From contig NZ_SEWZ01000003.1 in NCBI RefSeq assembly GCF_004307425.1, forward strand, positions 62,001 through 126,000: a stretch of 64,000 bases of DNA, in the 5' to 3' direction. The translations under genes and the position numbers were made by a program. The stretch comes from Aquirufa antheringensis. Its GTDB lineage: Bacteria; Bacteroidota; Bacteroidia; Cytophagales; Spirosomataceae. Shown piece by piece: positions 12,210 through 59,615 of the stretch. The notes under the pieces are model-generated. The model did no database searches and was not told the origin of the DNA. It worked only from the letters and a program-made list of their open reading frames with translations. Each line of letters starts with the position of its first letter. Within the stretch, counting starts at the first letter, position 1.

Positions 12210-13284
12210 ATGACTAAAGACAGGTTCAATGACCTGAAAGCCAGAATAGAGGCTTTAAGGAGGTATCTTTGACTACGATCACAAGAAATATTTAATCTCT
12301 GAATTAGAGACGGTCACCTTGGATCCCGAATTTTGGAACAATCCTGACAAAGCCGAAGGCACGATGCGCGAGATGCGTGGGCTGAAGTTTTGGACAGATG
12401 GGTTCGATAAACTCGCGAACGCACAGGGTGATTTAGAAACCATCTGGGAATTTTACGAAATGGGTGAAGCCACCGAGGCGGAAGTGGATGCAGAAGGCGA
12501 AAAGCTGGAGGCAAACCTGGAGGCTTTGGAATTCCGCAAAATGATGTCTGACGAAGGCGACAATATGAGCGCCGTATTAGAAATCAATGCGGGTGCTGGT
12601 GGAACCGAATCCCAAGACTGGGCAGCCATGTTATTGCGCATGTACCACATGTGGGCAGAAAAGAACGGCTTCAAGGTACGTTTAGTGGATGAAAATCCGG
12701 GGGACGTAGCTGGAATCAAATCCGTAACCATCGAGGTCGATGGTGAATTTGCCTACGGTAATTTAAAATCAGAAAACGGTGTGCACCGCTTAGTGCGTAT
12801 TTCTCCTTTCGACTCGAATGCGCGTCGTCACACGTCGTTTGCCTCGGTCTACATCTGTCCTCTAGCGGATGATACCATCGAAATTGAAATCAATCCAGCC
12901 GACATCGATTGGGATACCTTCCGTTCCGGTGGCGCAGGAGGCCAAAACGTGAACAAAGTCGAAACCGCGGTTCGTTTAACTCACAAACCTTCTGGAATCA
13001 TCATCGCTTGCCAGCAAGAACGTTCGCAATTAATGAACAAAGAAGTGGCATTGCGCCTTTTGAAGTCCAAATTATACCAAATCGAAATTGATAAACGCAA
13101 CGCTGCGCGCGCCGAAGTGGAGGCTGGCAAGAAGAAGATTGAGTGGGGTTCGCAGATCCGTTCCTATGTATTAGACGATCGCCGCGTGAAAGATCACCGC
13201 ACGAATTACCAAACATCAAATACTGATGCGGTGTTAGACGGGGAGATTAATGAGTTTATTAAGGCGTATTTGATGGAGAATTAA
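12210..13284 (+). CDS. prfB: peptide chain release factor 2 with programmed +1 frameshift
   Basis: RF2 recognises UAA and UGA. Translation begins at ATG 12210, reads 20 codons to CTT (12267-12269) and meets an in-frame TGA at 12270-12272. A +1 slip on CTT-T continues at 12271 to the stop at 13284, about 357 residues in all. The slip site has the Shine-Dalgarno-like AGGAGG just upstream, then TAT CTT TGA C, which is the conserved autoregulatory device of RF2. The long second frame carries [13 protein letters not shown] (SPF discriminator loop) and [10 protein letters not shown] (catalytic GGQ). A -7 element TAtaTTTG lies at 12179-12186. The stop codon is the first base of the heptamer array. 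Confidence 0.96.
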
Positions 13285-13423
13285 GTCGGGAGTCGCTAGT
13301 CGATAGTCACTAGTCGGGAGTCGATAGTCGCTAGTCGATAGTCGGGAGTCGATAGTCGATAGTCACTAGTCACTAGTCGGGAGTCGATAGTCACTAGTCG
13401 ATAGTCACTAGTCGGGAGTCGTT
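13284..13423. repeat. array of 20 perfect-register AGTCNNN heptamers filling a convergent junction
   Basis: Twenty contiguous 7-base units, each AGTC plus three bases: GGG (5), GCT (2), GAT (7), ACT (5), GTT (1), with no interruption. The first base is the last A of the prfB TAA. The last two bases belong to the stop (TTA on this strand) of the convergent gene at 13422-13742. The order of endings is irregular (GGG recurs after 4, 4, 5 and 5 units), unlike the coding array at 50948. No hairpin terminator is present at this junction. Confidence 0.95.
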
Positions 13424-50613: not shown

Positions 50614-50642
50614 TTGATAAAATAGAAATTGAACTACCTTTG
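50614..50642 (+). promoter_or_regulatory. promoter of the cobalamin-riboswitch/btuB unit
   Basis: TTG (50614-50616), 18 bases, TAccTTTG (50635-50642), just upstream of the riboswitch. Confidence 0.55.
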
Positions 50643-50648
50643 TGGTAG

Positions 50649-50812
50649 CGAAAGGTTCTGCGCCGCTTCGAACGGCGTTGATTAATAGGGAATTTGGTGA
50701 AAATCCGAAACTGTCCCCGCAACTGTAAATTTTCAAAAAGCTTTTCAATCTAGGGTCACTGGCGTCGCTGGGAAGGCCGAAAAGCAAGGGAAATGAGTCA
50801 GGAGACCTGCCT
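50649..50812 (+). promoter_or_regulatory. cobalamin (AdoCbl) riboswitch
   Basis: Class marks occur in the right order: GGGAATTTGGTGAAAATCC near 50688-50706, then CTGTCCCCGCAACTGTAA (50711-50728), then the B12 box with GAGTCAGGAGACCTGCC (50795-50811). A GC-rich stem CGCCG..CGGCG precedes the core. In this class bound adenosylcobalamin lowers expression. The stretch 50813-50903 joins it to the receptor ATG and holds an imperfect GACCT/AGGTC hairpin that could be the switching element. Confidence 0.93.
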
Positions 50813-50903
50813 TTTACTATTCTTGACCTTGTTTTACGGAGGATGATCCGAGGTCGAGCGTTCGATTACCTTTTTATTTCACAGGCCCAGATGGGCAAAA
50901 AAC

Positions 50904-53033
50904 ATGTTAAACGTATTAATTGTCGCTGGCGCGTTAGCTTCAGTGGGAGTCACTAGTCGGGAGTCGCTAGTCGATAGTCGGGAGTCGCTAGTCGCTAGTC
51001 GGGAGTCAATAGTCGACAGTCGGGAGTCAATAGTCGCTAGTCGGGAGTCAATAGTCGATAGTCGGGAGTCGCTAGTCGCTAGTCGGGAGTCGCTAGTCGA
51101 TAGTCGGGAGTCGCTAGTCGCTAGTCGGGAGGGTTCATCCACCATTCAGGAATCATCCACCATTAACCATTCACCATTCACCATTCAAAAAGATTCTACG
51201 CTCGCAGAGGTCACCATCTCCGCTCCCAAGTACCCAGAAAAACTGGATCGCTCGGGGAAAGTGGTTTCGGTGATTTCGGCCGAAATGATCCAGGCCAATC
51301 AGGGGAAAAGTCTAGGTGAATTACTCCAGCAAAGTGTAGGTGTCGCAGTAGTAGGCGCGCGCAGCGCGCCGGGGACAAACCAGGAGATTTATGTGAGGGG
51401 TGCGAATACGGGCCACGTTCTGTTGTTGATGGACGGATTTCCACTGAATGACCCATCCCATATTTCGTCGGTGATGGATTGGAACTTGATTTCTTTGGCA
51501 AACATCGAACGCATCGAAATCCTGAAAGGAGGCCAATCTACGCTGTATGGATCAGATGCGATGGCGGCTGTCATCAATTTAGTGACAAAGAAAAATGCGA
51601 AAGGATTGAATGTCGTACTTCAAGGTGGCGGCCTGGGGACTCATCAAGAACAAATTTCTTGGTCTACAACTCGAGGGAATAACCAGTTTCAAATACAGGC
51701 CCAAAATTACGCGACGGATGGTTTTTCTTCGGCCAAAATAGCTCAAGGAAAAGCGGAGGCCGATGGATTTAAGCAGCAAAGTTGGGGGTTGAAATGGGGG
51801 CGTGATATGGGAAAATTAGGTAACCTAGATTTCTCCTATTCGTCACAGTTGTATCAAGGGAATGTAGATAATGGTCCCTTTGTCGATGATCGAGATTACA
51901 CTTCGGAGGCCGTAAGTCATTCGTTCAGAGCGCAATACCAGGTGAGTAAATTCACAATTCGTGCCTTTCAAGATCTAATTCATCGGGAGTTTCGTAACGA
52001 TTCTTCGGATGTCGCTGCAAATGCTTGGTCGAAATTTAGTCTTTCGAGTTATGTAGGTTTAAATCAAGGATTGGAAGCTTTTGTGAAGATTCCCGTAATG
52101 GAAAATGCCACTTTGTTAATTGGTTCTGAATATAGACGCCAAAAAACGGAGCAAAGCGATCTTTCCATCAGCGACTATGGTCCTTACGTTTCACCTGATT
52201 TAGCAGAGAAACAAAAGACTCAGCAAATTGTGGGAACTTATGCGACCTGGCAGCAGAGTTGGGGTAAATTTGGTTACGAGGTGGGGGCGCGATGGAATGC
52301 GCAATCGACTTTTGGAAACTATTTTACCTATAATCTGAATCCGTATTGGGCTATTTCGCAGACAGCGAAATTCTTTGGGAATTATTATACGAGTTTTAAA
52401 ACTCCTTCGATTTATCAATTAGCGTCTCCTTATGGCAACTTGGATTTACAACCAGAACAAGGGAAAACGATCGAATTTGGGGCAGAGAAGAAGTTGAAAG
52501 CTTGGAGAATTCGTGCTGTTGCCTTTGAAAATCAAGTCAATCAGGGTATTATTTTTCAGGCGATGGATATCGAGCCTTTTGGCAAATACCAAAATATCTC
52601 CCAGCAGCAAACCCGCGGAATCGAATTCGAGATTAGCTACCAGACTTCGAAATTTCAAGCGGATTTCAATTATACCTATTTGAAAGGGGAGATGATCGAC
52701 CGCGATTCGACTTATTCGTCCTTGATTCGCCGCCCAACGAATGCCTGGAATCTGTATTTGCAGGCAAAGTTGACGAATAAATGGTCGGTGGGAATATCAA
52801 ATCAATTGGTAGGCCAAAGAGCGGATTACTTCTACGACGAGTCCACCTACTCCGTTCAACCGAACCCTATGGCTGCTTATATCTGGACTGATATTTCGGT
52901 TCATTATCAAATCAATACCAAATGGAAGGTTTCAGCCGTGTTAAAAAATGCGCTGAATCAAGAAATAATGGAGATTACGGGGTATAGCGGGCAACCGAGG
53001 AATTTACAGATTTCCCTACTGGGAAATTTGTAA
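50904..53033 (+). CDS. BtuB-like TonB-dependent cobalamin receptor with a heptamer-encoded N-terminus
   Basis: Outer-membrane receptor of 709 residues, taken as a vitamin B12 transporter because a cobalamin riboswitch lies directly upstream. Residues 1-15 look like a short signal peptide (MLNVLIVAGALASVG) without the usual basic start. Residues ~17-76 are eight and a half copies of a 7-residue unit SRES-L/I-V-D/A encoded by the DNA array. A TonB-box-like DSTLAEVTISAPK (97-109), plug (~110-225, RGANTGHVLLLMDGFPL) and barrel follow. Array length sets the frame, so the gene may be phase variable. How well the array-bearing N-terminus is processed is unclear. Confidence 0.85.
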   Translation: MLNVLIVAGALASVGVTSRESLVDSRESLVASRESIVDSRESIVASRESIVDSRESLVASRESLVDSRESLVASREGSSTIQESSTINHSPFTIQKDSTLAEVTISAPKYPEKLDRSGKVVSVISAEMIQANQGKSLGELLQQSVGVAVVGARSAPGTNQEIYVRGANTGHVLLLMDGFPLNDPSHISSVMDWNLISLANIERIEILKGGQSTLYGSDAMAAVINLVTKKNAKGLNVVLQGGGLGTHQEQISWSTTRGNNQFQIQAQNYATDGFSSAKIAQGKAEADGFKQQSWGLKWGRDMGKLGNLDFSYSSQLYQGNVDNGPFVDDRDYTSEAVSHSFRAQYQVSKFTIRAFQDLIHREFRNDSSDVAANAWSKFSLSSYVGLNQGLEAFVKIPVMENATLLIGSEYRRQKTEQSDLSISDYGPYVSPDLAEKQKTQQIVGTYATWQQSWGKFGYEVGARWNAQSTFGNYFTYNLNPYWAISQTAKFFGNYYTSFKTPSIYQLASPYGNLDLQPEQGKTIEFGAEKKLKAWRIRAVAFENQVNQGIIFQAMDIEPFGKYQNISQQQTRGIEFEISYQTSKFQADFNYTYLKGEMIDRDSTYSSLIRRPTNAWNLYLQAKLTNKWSVGISNQLVGQRADYFYDESTYSVQPNPMAAYIWTDISVHYQINTKWKVSAVLKNALNQEIMEITGYSGQPRNLQISLLGNL
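50948..51185 (+). repeat. 34-unit heptamer register inside the B12 receptor gene
   Basis: Twenty-six contiguous AGTCNNN units run from 50948 to 51129. Nine end in GGG, at 50955, 50976 and every 21 bases to 51123, each starting on a codon boundary; the two between end in GCT, GAT, AAT or GAC. The same 7-base register continues through four less regular units and then CACCATT, AACCATT, CACCATT, CACCATT (51158-51185). TCATCCACCATT also repeats with an 18-base period (51135, 51153). Out-of-frame reading meets TAG within the array. Confidence 0.95.
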
Positions 53034-53117
53034 ATTTCAAAGCTCAAATTTCAAAGATCAAAGTTCAGAGTAAGCCTATTTGAACTTTGCTCTTTGGTTT
53101 TTGAAATTTGAGCTTTG
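53032..53117. repeat. facing A-rich heptamer arrays forming an inverted repeat at convergent gene ends
   Basis: On the plus strand five heptamers, AAATTTC, AAAGCTC, AAATTTC, AAAGATC, AAAGTTC, run from 53032 to 53066, starting inside the TAA of the receptor gene. On the minus strand AAAGCTC, AAATTTC, AAAAACC, AAAGAGC, AAAGTTC, AAATAGG run from 53116 to 53075 behind the DUF4833 gene. CAAAGCTCAAATTTCAAA (53038-53055) is therefore perfectly complementary to 53100-53117, and AAAGTTCA (53060-53067) to 53081-53088, giving a long hairpin that may act as a bidirectional terminator. Confidence 0.88.
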
Positions 53118-53128
53118 CTCCGCAAAGC

Positions 53129-53644
53129 CTATGGCTTAAACTTCTCATACACATCCCTCCCCGTCACCGGGTCCTTCCCAAAAAGTTCGATGTAGTTCAC
53201 GGTGGTCATGAATTTCGAATCGTCCACACTGACGAAGACACGCTTGAGGATTTGCATCTTTCCGTTGATGGGAAATAACGCGATAGGGTCACCGGTTGCG
53301 TCTTGTTTGACCATAAACTTCCGTTTTCTGTAAGCTAAGAAATGTCCTTCGTAGGTATTAGGTATTCCTGTTACTGCGCTAGTATATAAACCATAGGCCA
53401 ATGTTCGCTGGATAGCTGTTAATTCCTCTTTTTGGCCTTTTTCTCCAAAACGATACCAATACGTGTGAACCGGGTCTTTCGCGTTCAATTTTCCTGCGAT
53501 CACGTTAGCGTCGTAGACTACTACATTCGCATTTGTGCTTCGCTGTATGAAGAAAAGGCGGTTAGGGGAATCAGGAGGGCTCGGGAATCGGTCGCCGCCA
53601 AGGCTACAAAAGGTAATTAGAAGAAGGAGCGACGTCAGTTTCAT
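53129..53644 (-). CDS. exported DUF4833 protein
   Basis: Protein of 171 residues with a signal peptide beginning at ATG 53644 (MKLTSLLLLITFCSLGG); the longer frame to 53719 adds a non-signal stretch. The DUF4833 pattern is visible: NRLFFIQRSTNANVVVYDANV near residue 26, PVHTYWYRFGEKGQKEELTAIQRTLAYGL near 58, ending in YIELFGKDPVTGRDVYEKF. The function of the family is unknown. It converges on the B12 receptor gene and is followed by its own heptamer array. Confidence 0.82.
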   Translation of the reverse strand: MKLTSLLLLITFCSLGGDRFPSPPDSPNRLFFIQRSTNANVVVYDANVIAGKLNAKDPVHTYWYRFGEKGQKEELTAIQRTLAYGLYTSAVTGIPNTYEGHFLAYRKRKFMVKQDATGDPIALFPINGKMQILKRVFVSVDDSKFMTTVNYIELFGKDPVTGRDVYEKFKP

Positions 53645-58502: not shown

Positions 58503-58600
58503 GGATTCCAACTTTATTCTTTGTGCTCTATGCTTTATTCTTTGTGCTCTCTACTCTTCTCCACTTCAGACTAGTGACTAGTGACTAGCGACTAGCGACT
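58503..58600 (-). repeat. heptamer register behind the PorP/SprF gene
   Basis: Read on the minus strand from 58600: AGTCGCT, AGTCGCT, AGTCACT, AGTCACT, AGTCTGA, then less regular units, then GAGAGCA, CAAAGAA, TAAAGCA, TAGAGCA, CAAAGAA, TAAAGTT down to 58510. The first AG is the end of the gene's TAG stop. The middle part is also a 21-base direct repeat (three heptamers), seen on the plus strand as two copies of CTTTATTCTTTGTGCTCT. Confidence 0.88.
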
Positions 58601-59615
58601 AAAATTTCGGACAAGCGAAACTTTGGCGGTAGCGTTGGAAGGATTTTCTTTGGCCAAAATCCCAGTTTAAGACATAGGAGAAGCTCAATTCGTGTGCTCC
58701 TCCGGAACCCAAACCTAAACCTGAGACCGTAAAATCATAGGAATAGCCAAAGGAGTACCGATTGTTTTGATAGCCAACTAATCCAATGAGAGATTCTCGA
58801 CTCGTCGAGGATTCAGAAGTACCTTTATTCAAGGGCAATCCGCGGTACCACAAACCAATAACTAAGGGGTCTAATTGCAGATAAGTCCCTAGGTCTAGTT
58901 GGCTAAAGGTGCCTTGATTTTTAACGTAAAGGGCCGGTTTAAGGCTTTTTCCTTCAGAGATTGGTAGGCTGAGGCCTGCCATGAGCGCGTATTTAGGGGC
59001 GATTAAATCATCGCTAGAGCGGATGAGGGATTGGTTAGGTCGGTTTAAATGGTGCACAGATGCTCCGAGCCAGTAATTGGAATGGTTCAATACCAAGCCG
59101 GCTGAAATGTCCATATAACTCACGCGGTTCACAAAGGAAAGGGCAGTAGGGTCAAACGTATTTCCTAAGGTACCGTTGACTAAAAATTGGCCTAATTGAT
59201 CTCCGTAGGTTAAATGGCTATAATCTAAACTGCGGAAAACGCCTGAACCTTGGATGCCCATGGAAAGTAAAGTATTCTCATTTAGGTTTGCGTGGTAGGC
59301 GTATTGAAGGCTGATGGAGTTCGTTTGGAGGCTAGAAAATTGCTTGTCTGAGGAGAAAAGTAGTCCGATGCCACTGTTGATTTTTCCCAAGCTGACTTCT
59401 ACTGCTGCGGCAGAATACTGGTAATTAGCCGATTGATTCGGCCATTGGTTTCGATGCGTTAAATAGACTTTGTTTTGATCTTGCAAACCGGCGAAGGCGG
59501 GGGAGTTGAGTAGGGGGTTCGCTAGGTTTTGGGATAATTGCGGATCTTGCGCTGAGAGCGAAAGGGCGCTCAGTAAAAATAAGAAAGTAGAAAAAATGGA
59601 TAAACGAGTCCACAT
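58599..59615 (-). CDS. PorP/SprF family type IX secretion membrane protein
   Basis: Outer-membrane beta-barrel-like protein of 338 residues with a signal peptide (cleaved near LSLSAQ). DPQLSQNLANPLLNSPAFAGLQDQNKVYLTHRNQWP is the classical PorP/SprF opening, and the C-terminal NNRYSFGYSYDFTVSGLGLGSGGAHELSFSYVLNW is its ending. SprF-type partners are needed to export adjacent large proteins through the type IX system and anchor them. The divergent neighbour at 59687 carries the matching type B C-terminal domain, so the two are a likely carrier/cargo pair. Confidence 0.92.
   Translation of the reverse strand: MWTRLSIFSTFLFLLSALSLSAQDPQLSQNLANPLLNSPAFAGLQDQNKVYLTHRNQWPNQSANYQYSAAAVEVSLGKINSGIGLLFSSDKQFSSLQTNSISLQYAYHANLNENTLLSMGIQGSGVFRSLDYSHLTYGDQLGQFLVNGTLGNTFDPTALSFVNRVSYMDISAGLVLNHSNYWLGASVHHLNRPNQSLIRSSDDLIAPKYALMAGLSLPISEGKSLKPALYVKNQGTFSQLDLGTYLQLDPLVIGLWYRGLPLNKGTSESSTSRESLIGLVGYQNNRYSFGYSYDFTVSGLGLGSGGAHELSFSYVLNWDFGQRKSFQRYRQSFACPKF

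Follow-up and report, generated by a model that had tools for sequence, protein, structure and literature searches.

A heptamer array in the coding sequence of a BtuB-type TonB-dependent receptor gene of Aquirufa antheringensis, and the differing repeat families of its relatives

In the freshwater bacterium Aquirufa antheringensis, the 5' part of a gene for a BtuB-type TonB-dependent receptor contains 26 tandem AGTCnnn heptamers. The array probably belongs to a set of 7-bp repeats found throughout the genome (AGTCnnn in this one), usually in intergenic DNA, and has come to lie in frame within a disordered, tolerant tail, where repeats turn over fast and selection removes stops and frame shifts. 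What argues for selection is comparative sequence data: pooled over 24 linkers of the clade (10 of the receptor, nine of an RND pump and five of an AMP-binding enzyme), 1031 in-frame codons hold no stop, while the other two frames hold 67 and 90 stops in 1007 codons each (157/2014).

Heptamer arrays of the clade would grow, shrink and switch family quickly, both within and between genes, with slippage or recombination as the presumed mode of duplication and replacement. Disordered chain segments may tolerate such arrays in proteins, the receptor array sitting in a tail that follows the signal peptide, precedes the TonB box and would tolerate sequence change, and purifying selection would discard coding variants that acquire a stop or shift the frame. 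The survivors would be stop-free in the translated frame, the two longest cases repeating at 21 or 42 bp, and further slippage or recombination at these lengths would keep the frame. Since self-identity peaks at 42 bp in the receptor and RND arrays, the likeliest length changes are expected to be frame-preserving. The array is presumably translated in the cell, and its tail presumably lacks a sequence-specific function.

Such loci offer a natural experiment on non-coding repeats becoming protein, because the same protein loops carry different 7-bp families in sister species, read from either strand, and have the open frame in common. They also show how higher-order repetition can render a unit frame-safe even though its length is no multiple of three.

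The receptor gene and the order of its repeat units

Coordinates refer to the window, that is, the whole stretch of 64,000 nucleotides that was analysed (Table 1). Sequence and structure comparisons assign the receptor ORF to the BtuB type, with vitamin B12 transport as its predicted function: the protein combines a plug and a beta-barrel with solved BtuB as the closest structures, vitamin B12 receptors are its top PDB sequence matches (E 1.8e-32), Foldseek likewise places BtuB first, and a cobalamin riboswitch is recognised upstream by sequence match. From the N-terminus, a short hydrophobic segment is followed by the AGTCnnn array of tandem 7-bp units, a CCATTCA-type stretch, the conserved DSTLAEVTISAP, which we take to be the TonB box, and the plug. 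The hydrophobic segment is probably a signal peptide, as suggested by an AF2 helix over residues 2-17, a part modelled with low confidence. Residues 14-115 have a pLDDT below 50 (AF2 model from 17 sequences, mean pLDDT 66), and the tail before the TonB box is predicted to be disordered. No RNA structure was found in the coding array when its first 143 bases were folded (z 0.31).

Table 1. Features of the receptor locus and the intergenic control array
Feature	Position in window	Strand	Basis or remark
Intergenic control array, 20 AGTCnnn units	13284..13423	+	No open frame on either strand
Cobalamin riboswitch, upstream of receptor gene	50636..50828	+	Rfam RF00174, 113.4 bits
BtuB-type TonB-dependent receptor gene, 709 aa	50904..53033	+	Pfam Plug + TonB_dep_Rec_b-barrel
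Short hydrophobic N-terminus, probable signal peptide	50904..50954	+	AF2 helix and position in relatives
Coding array, 26 AGTCnnn heptamers	50948..51129	+	21/42-bp higher-order period, GGG every third unit
Second coding heptamer stretch of the linker, CCATTCA-type	51131..51187	+	TRF 51154-51187, period 7
Conserved DSTLAEVTISAP, putative TonB box, before plug	51192..51227	+	Alignment of relatives

At the other end of the gene, two hairpins lie at the gene end and 3' of it (53006-53130), the second of which is long, contains CAAAGnn/CAAATTT heptamer-like units, stands between convergent ORFs and is terminator-like (-54.9 kcal/mol, z -10.3). In relatives, the region 3' of the receptor gene shows, by eye, heptamer-like sequence belonging to other families.

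The first-pass annotation had drawn attention to nine units ending in GGG, exactly 21 bases apart and all starting on a codon boundary, and a listing of all 26 units confirms this to the base (AGTCGGG at 50955, 50976, 50997, 51018, 51039, 51060, 51081, 51102 and 51123). Codons in this phase read AGT CGN NAG, so that a unit ending in T would create an in-frame TAG, which happens at no other phase. Units ending in T number 0/9 at the GGG phase against 16/17 at the other two phases (Fisher p 3.2e-6, a value that holds for shuffled unit order), the sole exception at the latter being a GAC unit at 51011. The accompanying statement that T is harmless at these other phases is right for the units present, but endings TA or TG at one of them would also give a stop.

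This order cannot by itself be read as proof of selection. The array matches itself best at shifts of 21 bp (self-identity 0.91) and 42 bp (0.92), whereas shifts of 7, 14, 28 and 35 bp give 0.73-0.74; because the array is thus a 21/42-bp higher-order repeat, its 26 units are not independent, and within-array statistics were rejected as proof. In 22 non-coding arrays of the same genome, 32/144 units have non-T endings, so that a single founding unit would pass the stop test by chance at ~0.22, and one founding stop-free 21-mer suffices. Thus, of the earlier claim of direct evidence that selection or 21-base expansion kept the array open, the stop-free coding frame and the fit to growth in 21/42-bp steps stand, but the unit order is insufficient, as the expansion of one stop-free triplet explains it (p ~0.22). 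Since the units are heterogeneous and the longest identical run is 12 nt at shift 7 versus 37 nt at shift 42, changes that preserve the frame should be favoured.

A pure 21-bp expansion, in which one stop-free 21-mer entered and multiplied and the GGG units were inherited with no added selection on their order, is a possible, if rather unlikely, account of the whole. The 21/42-bp period with its identity of 0.91-0.92 agrees with it, as does the chance of ~0.22 for the founding unit; however, the absence of 7- or 14-bp steps would still require selection against frame shifts, and differing families have been kept open in 10 species.

Linkers of related species and non-coding controls

The receptor was matched in 37/38 genomes of the genus at E 1e-60, and the 10 closest species were compared: G000 (the window's genome, 2.5 Mb in 11 contigs), G030, G007, G002, G015, G021, G027, G013, G023 and G008. 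All comparisons use one genome per species, with completeness of 73-99.6%; nine of the 10 are in several contigs and at least eight match MAG records, repeats being prone to misassembly in such data. In 10/10 species the linker consists mostly of heptamer-type stretches, with families and mixtures that differ (AGTCGnn, CAGTnnn, AGTCCGG with spacers, CCATTnA and CTCTACT types) and a length of 24-92 codons counted after the first 12. All 10 linkers are open, with 0 stops in 587 in-frame codons as opposed to 45 and 40 when the alternative frames are read; the linker of the window's receptor has 17 out-of-frame stops. When 7-base blocks are shuffled, the probability of staying open is 0.0002 for the receptor linker of the window's species and below 0.035 in six of the 10 species, whereas it reaches 0.31-0.70 in the short linkers of G021, G023 and G030, whose open frame is not surprising. 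G008 and G023 are 97% identical in barrel DNA and 99.4% in the 5' UTR, yet their linkers measure 225 and 72 nt, the shorter aligning at 90% to parts of the longer.

The comparison of sister strains that the first-pass annotation had called for was made here at the species level. The GGG order is not a general rule, as the nine sister species stay open with other units and heptamer families. As an outgroup served the 27 other matched genomes, in which the start could be read in 18 (the motif found no match in L046, and L058 is truncated); by eye, a heptamer array was seen in none of these 18 receptor starts. Some outgroup N-termini are short, and others are longer with a coarser VAFMLQSGSVLA-like repeat. 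The G002 assembly also contains another receptor fragment (L149, contig CAILUB010000187.1) whose start resembles that of the G027 receptor; it is probably mis-binned and was not counted. Small palindromes, CCGCTTCGCGG and GTTGCTTCGCAAC, occur inside coding heptamer stretches of the receptor linkers of G013 (L038) and G015 (L035).

A search for further coding heptamer arrays, also suggested earlier, was successful: the window's genome has two more of the AGTC family, both read from the opposite strand and internal to long ORFs, with domains flanking or surrounding them. One, in a 1485-aa RND-OEP fusion, comprises 22 units with a 42-bp period (self-identity 0.96) and links ACR_tran (residues 5-1032) to OEP (best stretch 1313-1476); as it is read from the other strand, different units are stop-prone than in the receptor array. 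The other covers ~100 bases in the gene of an AMP-binding enzyme, a short distance ahead of its YTSGTT motif. At both sites (nine species for RND, five for the AMP-ligase) the stretches differ between clade species, and by eye no heptamer stretches were seen in 11 RND and 15 AMP-ligase outgroup loci. RND was left out for G027, which gave no match at 1e-20, and the AMP-ligase for four species without a match at 1e-30 (G002, G015, G023 and G027). In G021 the AMP-ligase homologue seemed to be split into two frames, but its linker is a run of N; it is therefore uninformative and was not counted. The shuffled-block probability is 0.02-0.68 for RND and 0.12-0.44 for the five AMP loops, and no combined p is claimed for these mutually dependent linkers, those of related species sharing ancestry. 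The pooled stop counts demonstrate a coding frame and not a special mechanism, as any coding sequence has fewer in-frame stops. Two further cases of coding repeats were observed in passing. A 220-aa protein owes the front of its probable signal peptide (MKRIFTIHHLPFTILLFCSIAVFGQ) to a CCATTnA array (L188 reverse 1478-1552, G000:C2 near 294009), and the C-terminal tail of the L280 protein (G012:C1:119269-122293) consists largely of CAGTnnn-type stretches; from its two CxxCxxCxxxCP iron-sulphur motifs, we take the latter protein to be NuoI-like.

Non-coding arrays served as controls. In the intergenic array at 13284, GGG falls on units 1, 5, 9, 14 and 19, which agrees with the earlier remark that it recurs there every 4-5 units. 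Among the 15 arrays of at least five units in the window's genome, six have no open frame on either strand (L062, L064, L068, L081, L082 and the one at 13284), three lie in the coding genes described above and six have at least one open frame, in ORFs of 14-87 codons. Of six non-coding arrays compared for self-identity, two have their maximum at 7 bp and the remaining four at 14, 21, 35 and 70 bp, respectively, five of the six peaking at frame-breaking shifts and one not; the two long coding arrays peak at 42 bp, with 21 bp nearly equal in the receptor but not in RND. A neat divide between coding and non-coding arrays is countered by the non-coding L068, with its peak of 0.84 at 21 bp. In a best-lag test of 31 arrays of at least eight units, 28 of them taken as non-coding, the best unit lag was 6 in both long coding arrays and a multiple of 3 in 7/28 non-coding ones; the arrays are too few to carry weight, and the test was rejected as evidence. 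The 31st array (L068 reverse, AGTCGGT x12) was set aside, since an ATG follows closely on its open frame. Its twelve identical AGTCGGT units (L068, G000:C2:148060-148140) stop a few bases short of this ATG, which belongs to a presumed pirin gene.

A selected function of the repeat-coded tail, for instance as a spacer whose length is tuned so that the TonB box can reach TonB, would suit its presence in 10/10 clade species (24-92 codons after the first 12). Nevertheless, we consider it unlikely, since length and sequence vary widely and other members of the genus carry other N-termini without heptamer arrays.

Phase variation by a 7-bp slip near the 5' end, toggling the surface receptor in order to escape phages, for example, is a serious rival to the in-frame member reading but a weaker one, and appears quite improbable. 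The 5' location, the unit that is not a multiple of three and the 17 out-of-frame stops in the linker speak in its favour. In Neisseria meningitidis, the phase variation of two TonB-dependent haemoglobin receptors has a repeat basis. These two receptors are described as phase variable in PMC3352162, and the receptor class is common to both systems; unlike them, however, the receptor studied here shows no closed frame in 10 species and has heterogeneous units. Closed-frame (OFF) alleles of the kind that mark a contingency locus were found in 0/10 receptor linkers, at one genome per species, the frame being open in all 10. Nor are there near-identical units that could slip by one, self-identity being 0.74 at shift 7 with a longest identical run of 12 nt there against 37 at shift 42, and like arrays also occur in the RND pump, in the AMP-binding enzyme and between genes.

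That the array is untranslated, with the true start 3' of it and a frame open by chance, is highly improbable given the ATG with MLN or MLK after a conserved 5' UTR and the open frame in 10/10 species, the next in-frame Met of the window's protein, which lies within the plug domain, and the location of the RND and AMP-ligase arrays inside long ORFs, where domains flank or surround them.

Known heptamer repeats

Rickettsia palindromic elements are another case of repeats within proteins. Heptamer arrays, coding cases included, are an already known class of bacterial repeats, as described in PMC4679880, PMC4692102 and PMC6749651, the last of which treats satellites as coding repeats. The TAACTGA direct repeats of Beggiatoaceae, Cyanobacteria and some Bacteroidetes (MacGregor 2015, PMC4679880) resemble the present ones in forming 7-bp tandem arrays that are mostly intergenic, with some within ORFs, where they are placed mainly at the protein periphery and where reading-frame stops were reasoned about. 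In contrast to this one fixed unit, the units studied here vary in their last three bases and belong to several families in each genome; sister species differ in the repeats found at the same protein site, and the order of the units by phase avoids stops. The heptameric G-rich repeats of Xanthomonas and Nostoc, of 2-26 units, also form genome-wide arrays, perfect or heterogeneous, and are described in PMC4692102 as under-represented in coding regions and linked to G-quadruplexes. As summarised in PMC4679880, heptamers are the commonest long repeat unit in most genomes and multiples of 3 the likeliest repeat units in genes (Mrazek et al. 2007); compared with these long simple sequence repeats, the 7-bp unit here becomes a 21/42-bp coding unit by higher-order repetition. 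The literature searched yielded no report of heptamer arrays in Aquirufa, nor of one heptamer family standing in for another in the coding linkers of sister species.

Dominant families and their exchange

When the family of a genome is measured by 4-unit matches, AGTC outnumbers CAGT in G000 (220 vs 14), G015, G013 and G023, CAGT outnumbers AGTC in G008 (138 vs 1), G007, G021 and G030, and the two tie in G002 and G027. The linker family follows the dominant family of its genome, albeit imperfectly: r is 0.72 (permutation p 0.0008) over 21 of the 24 linkers with their own matches subtracted, three RND linkers with neither type in tandem being left out, and the per-gene p values are 0.036 for the receptor, 0.030 for RND and 0.024 for AMP. 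The signs agree in seven of the 10 species and disagree in G002, G013 and G027. Plain inheritance is not an easy answer to this signal, as the dominant family is unclustered on the receptor-barrel tree (3 changes vs a shuffled mean of 3.3), a gene tree with weak branches, five of its 10 inner branches being open.

These observations make it conceivable, although somewhat short of probable, that a clade-wide process keeps rewriting coding and intergenic heptamer arrays on either strand, so that the linker family tracks the dominant family of the genome; non-coding satellites would then evolve in concert and overwrite parts of conserved proteins, frame survival being the main filter. Its basis is the linker-genome family correlation, the mechanism not being demonstrated. 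If concerted replacement holds true, bacteria would have a mutational process by which coding linkers are edited wholesale, and freshwater bacteria would lend themselves to testing it.

Two arrangements of arrays in the window's genome were observed besides. In the listed part of the genome, arrays on opposite strands occur in pairs ~55-460 bases apart (G000:C1:330611/331171, C1:498198/498278 and C2:147807/148060). Finally, at 58569-58601 of the window, a GACTAGC array of 4.7 copies directly follows TTTATTC/CTTTGTGCTC heptamer-like sequence, two families thus adjoining each other.
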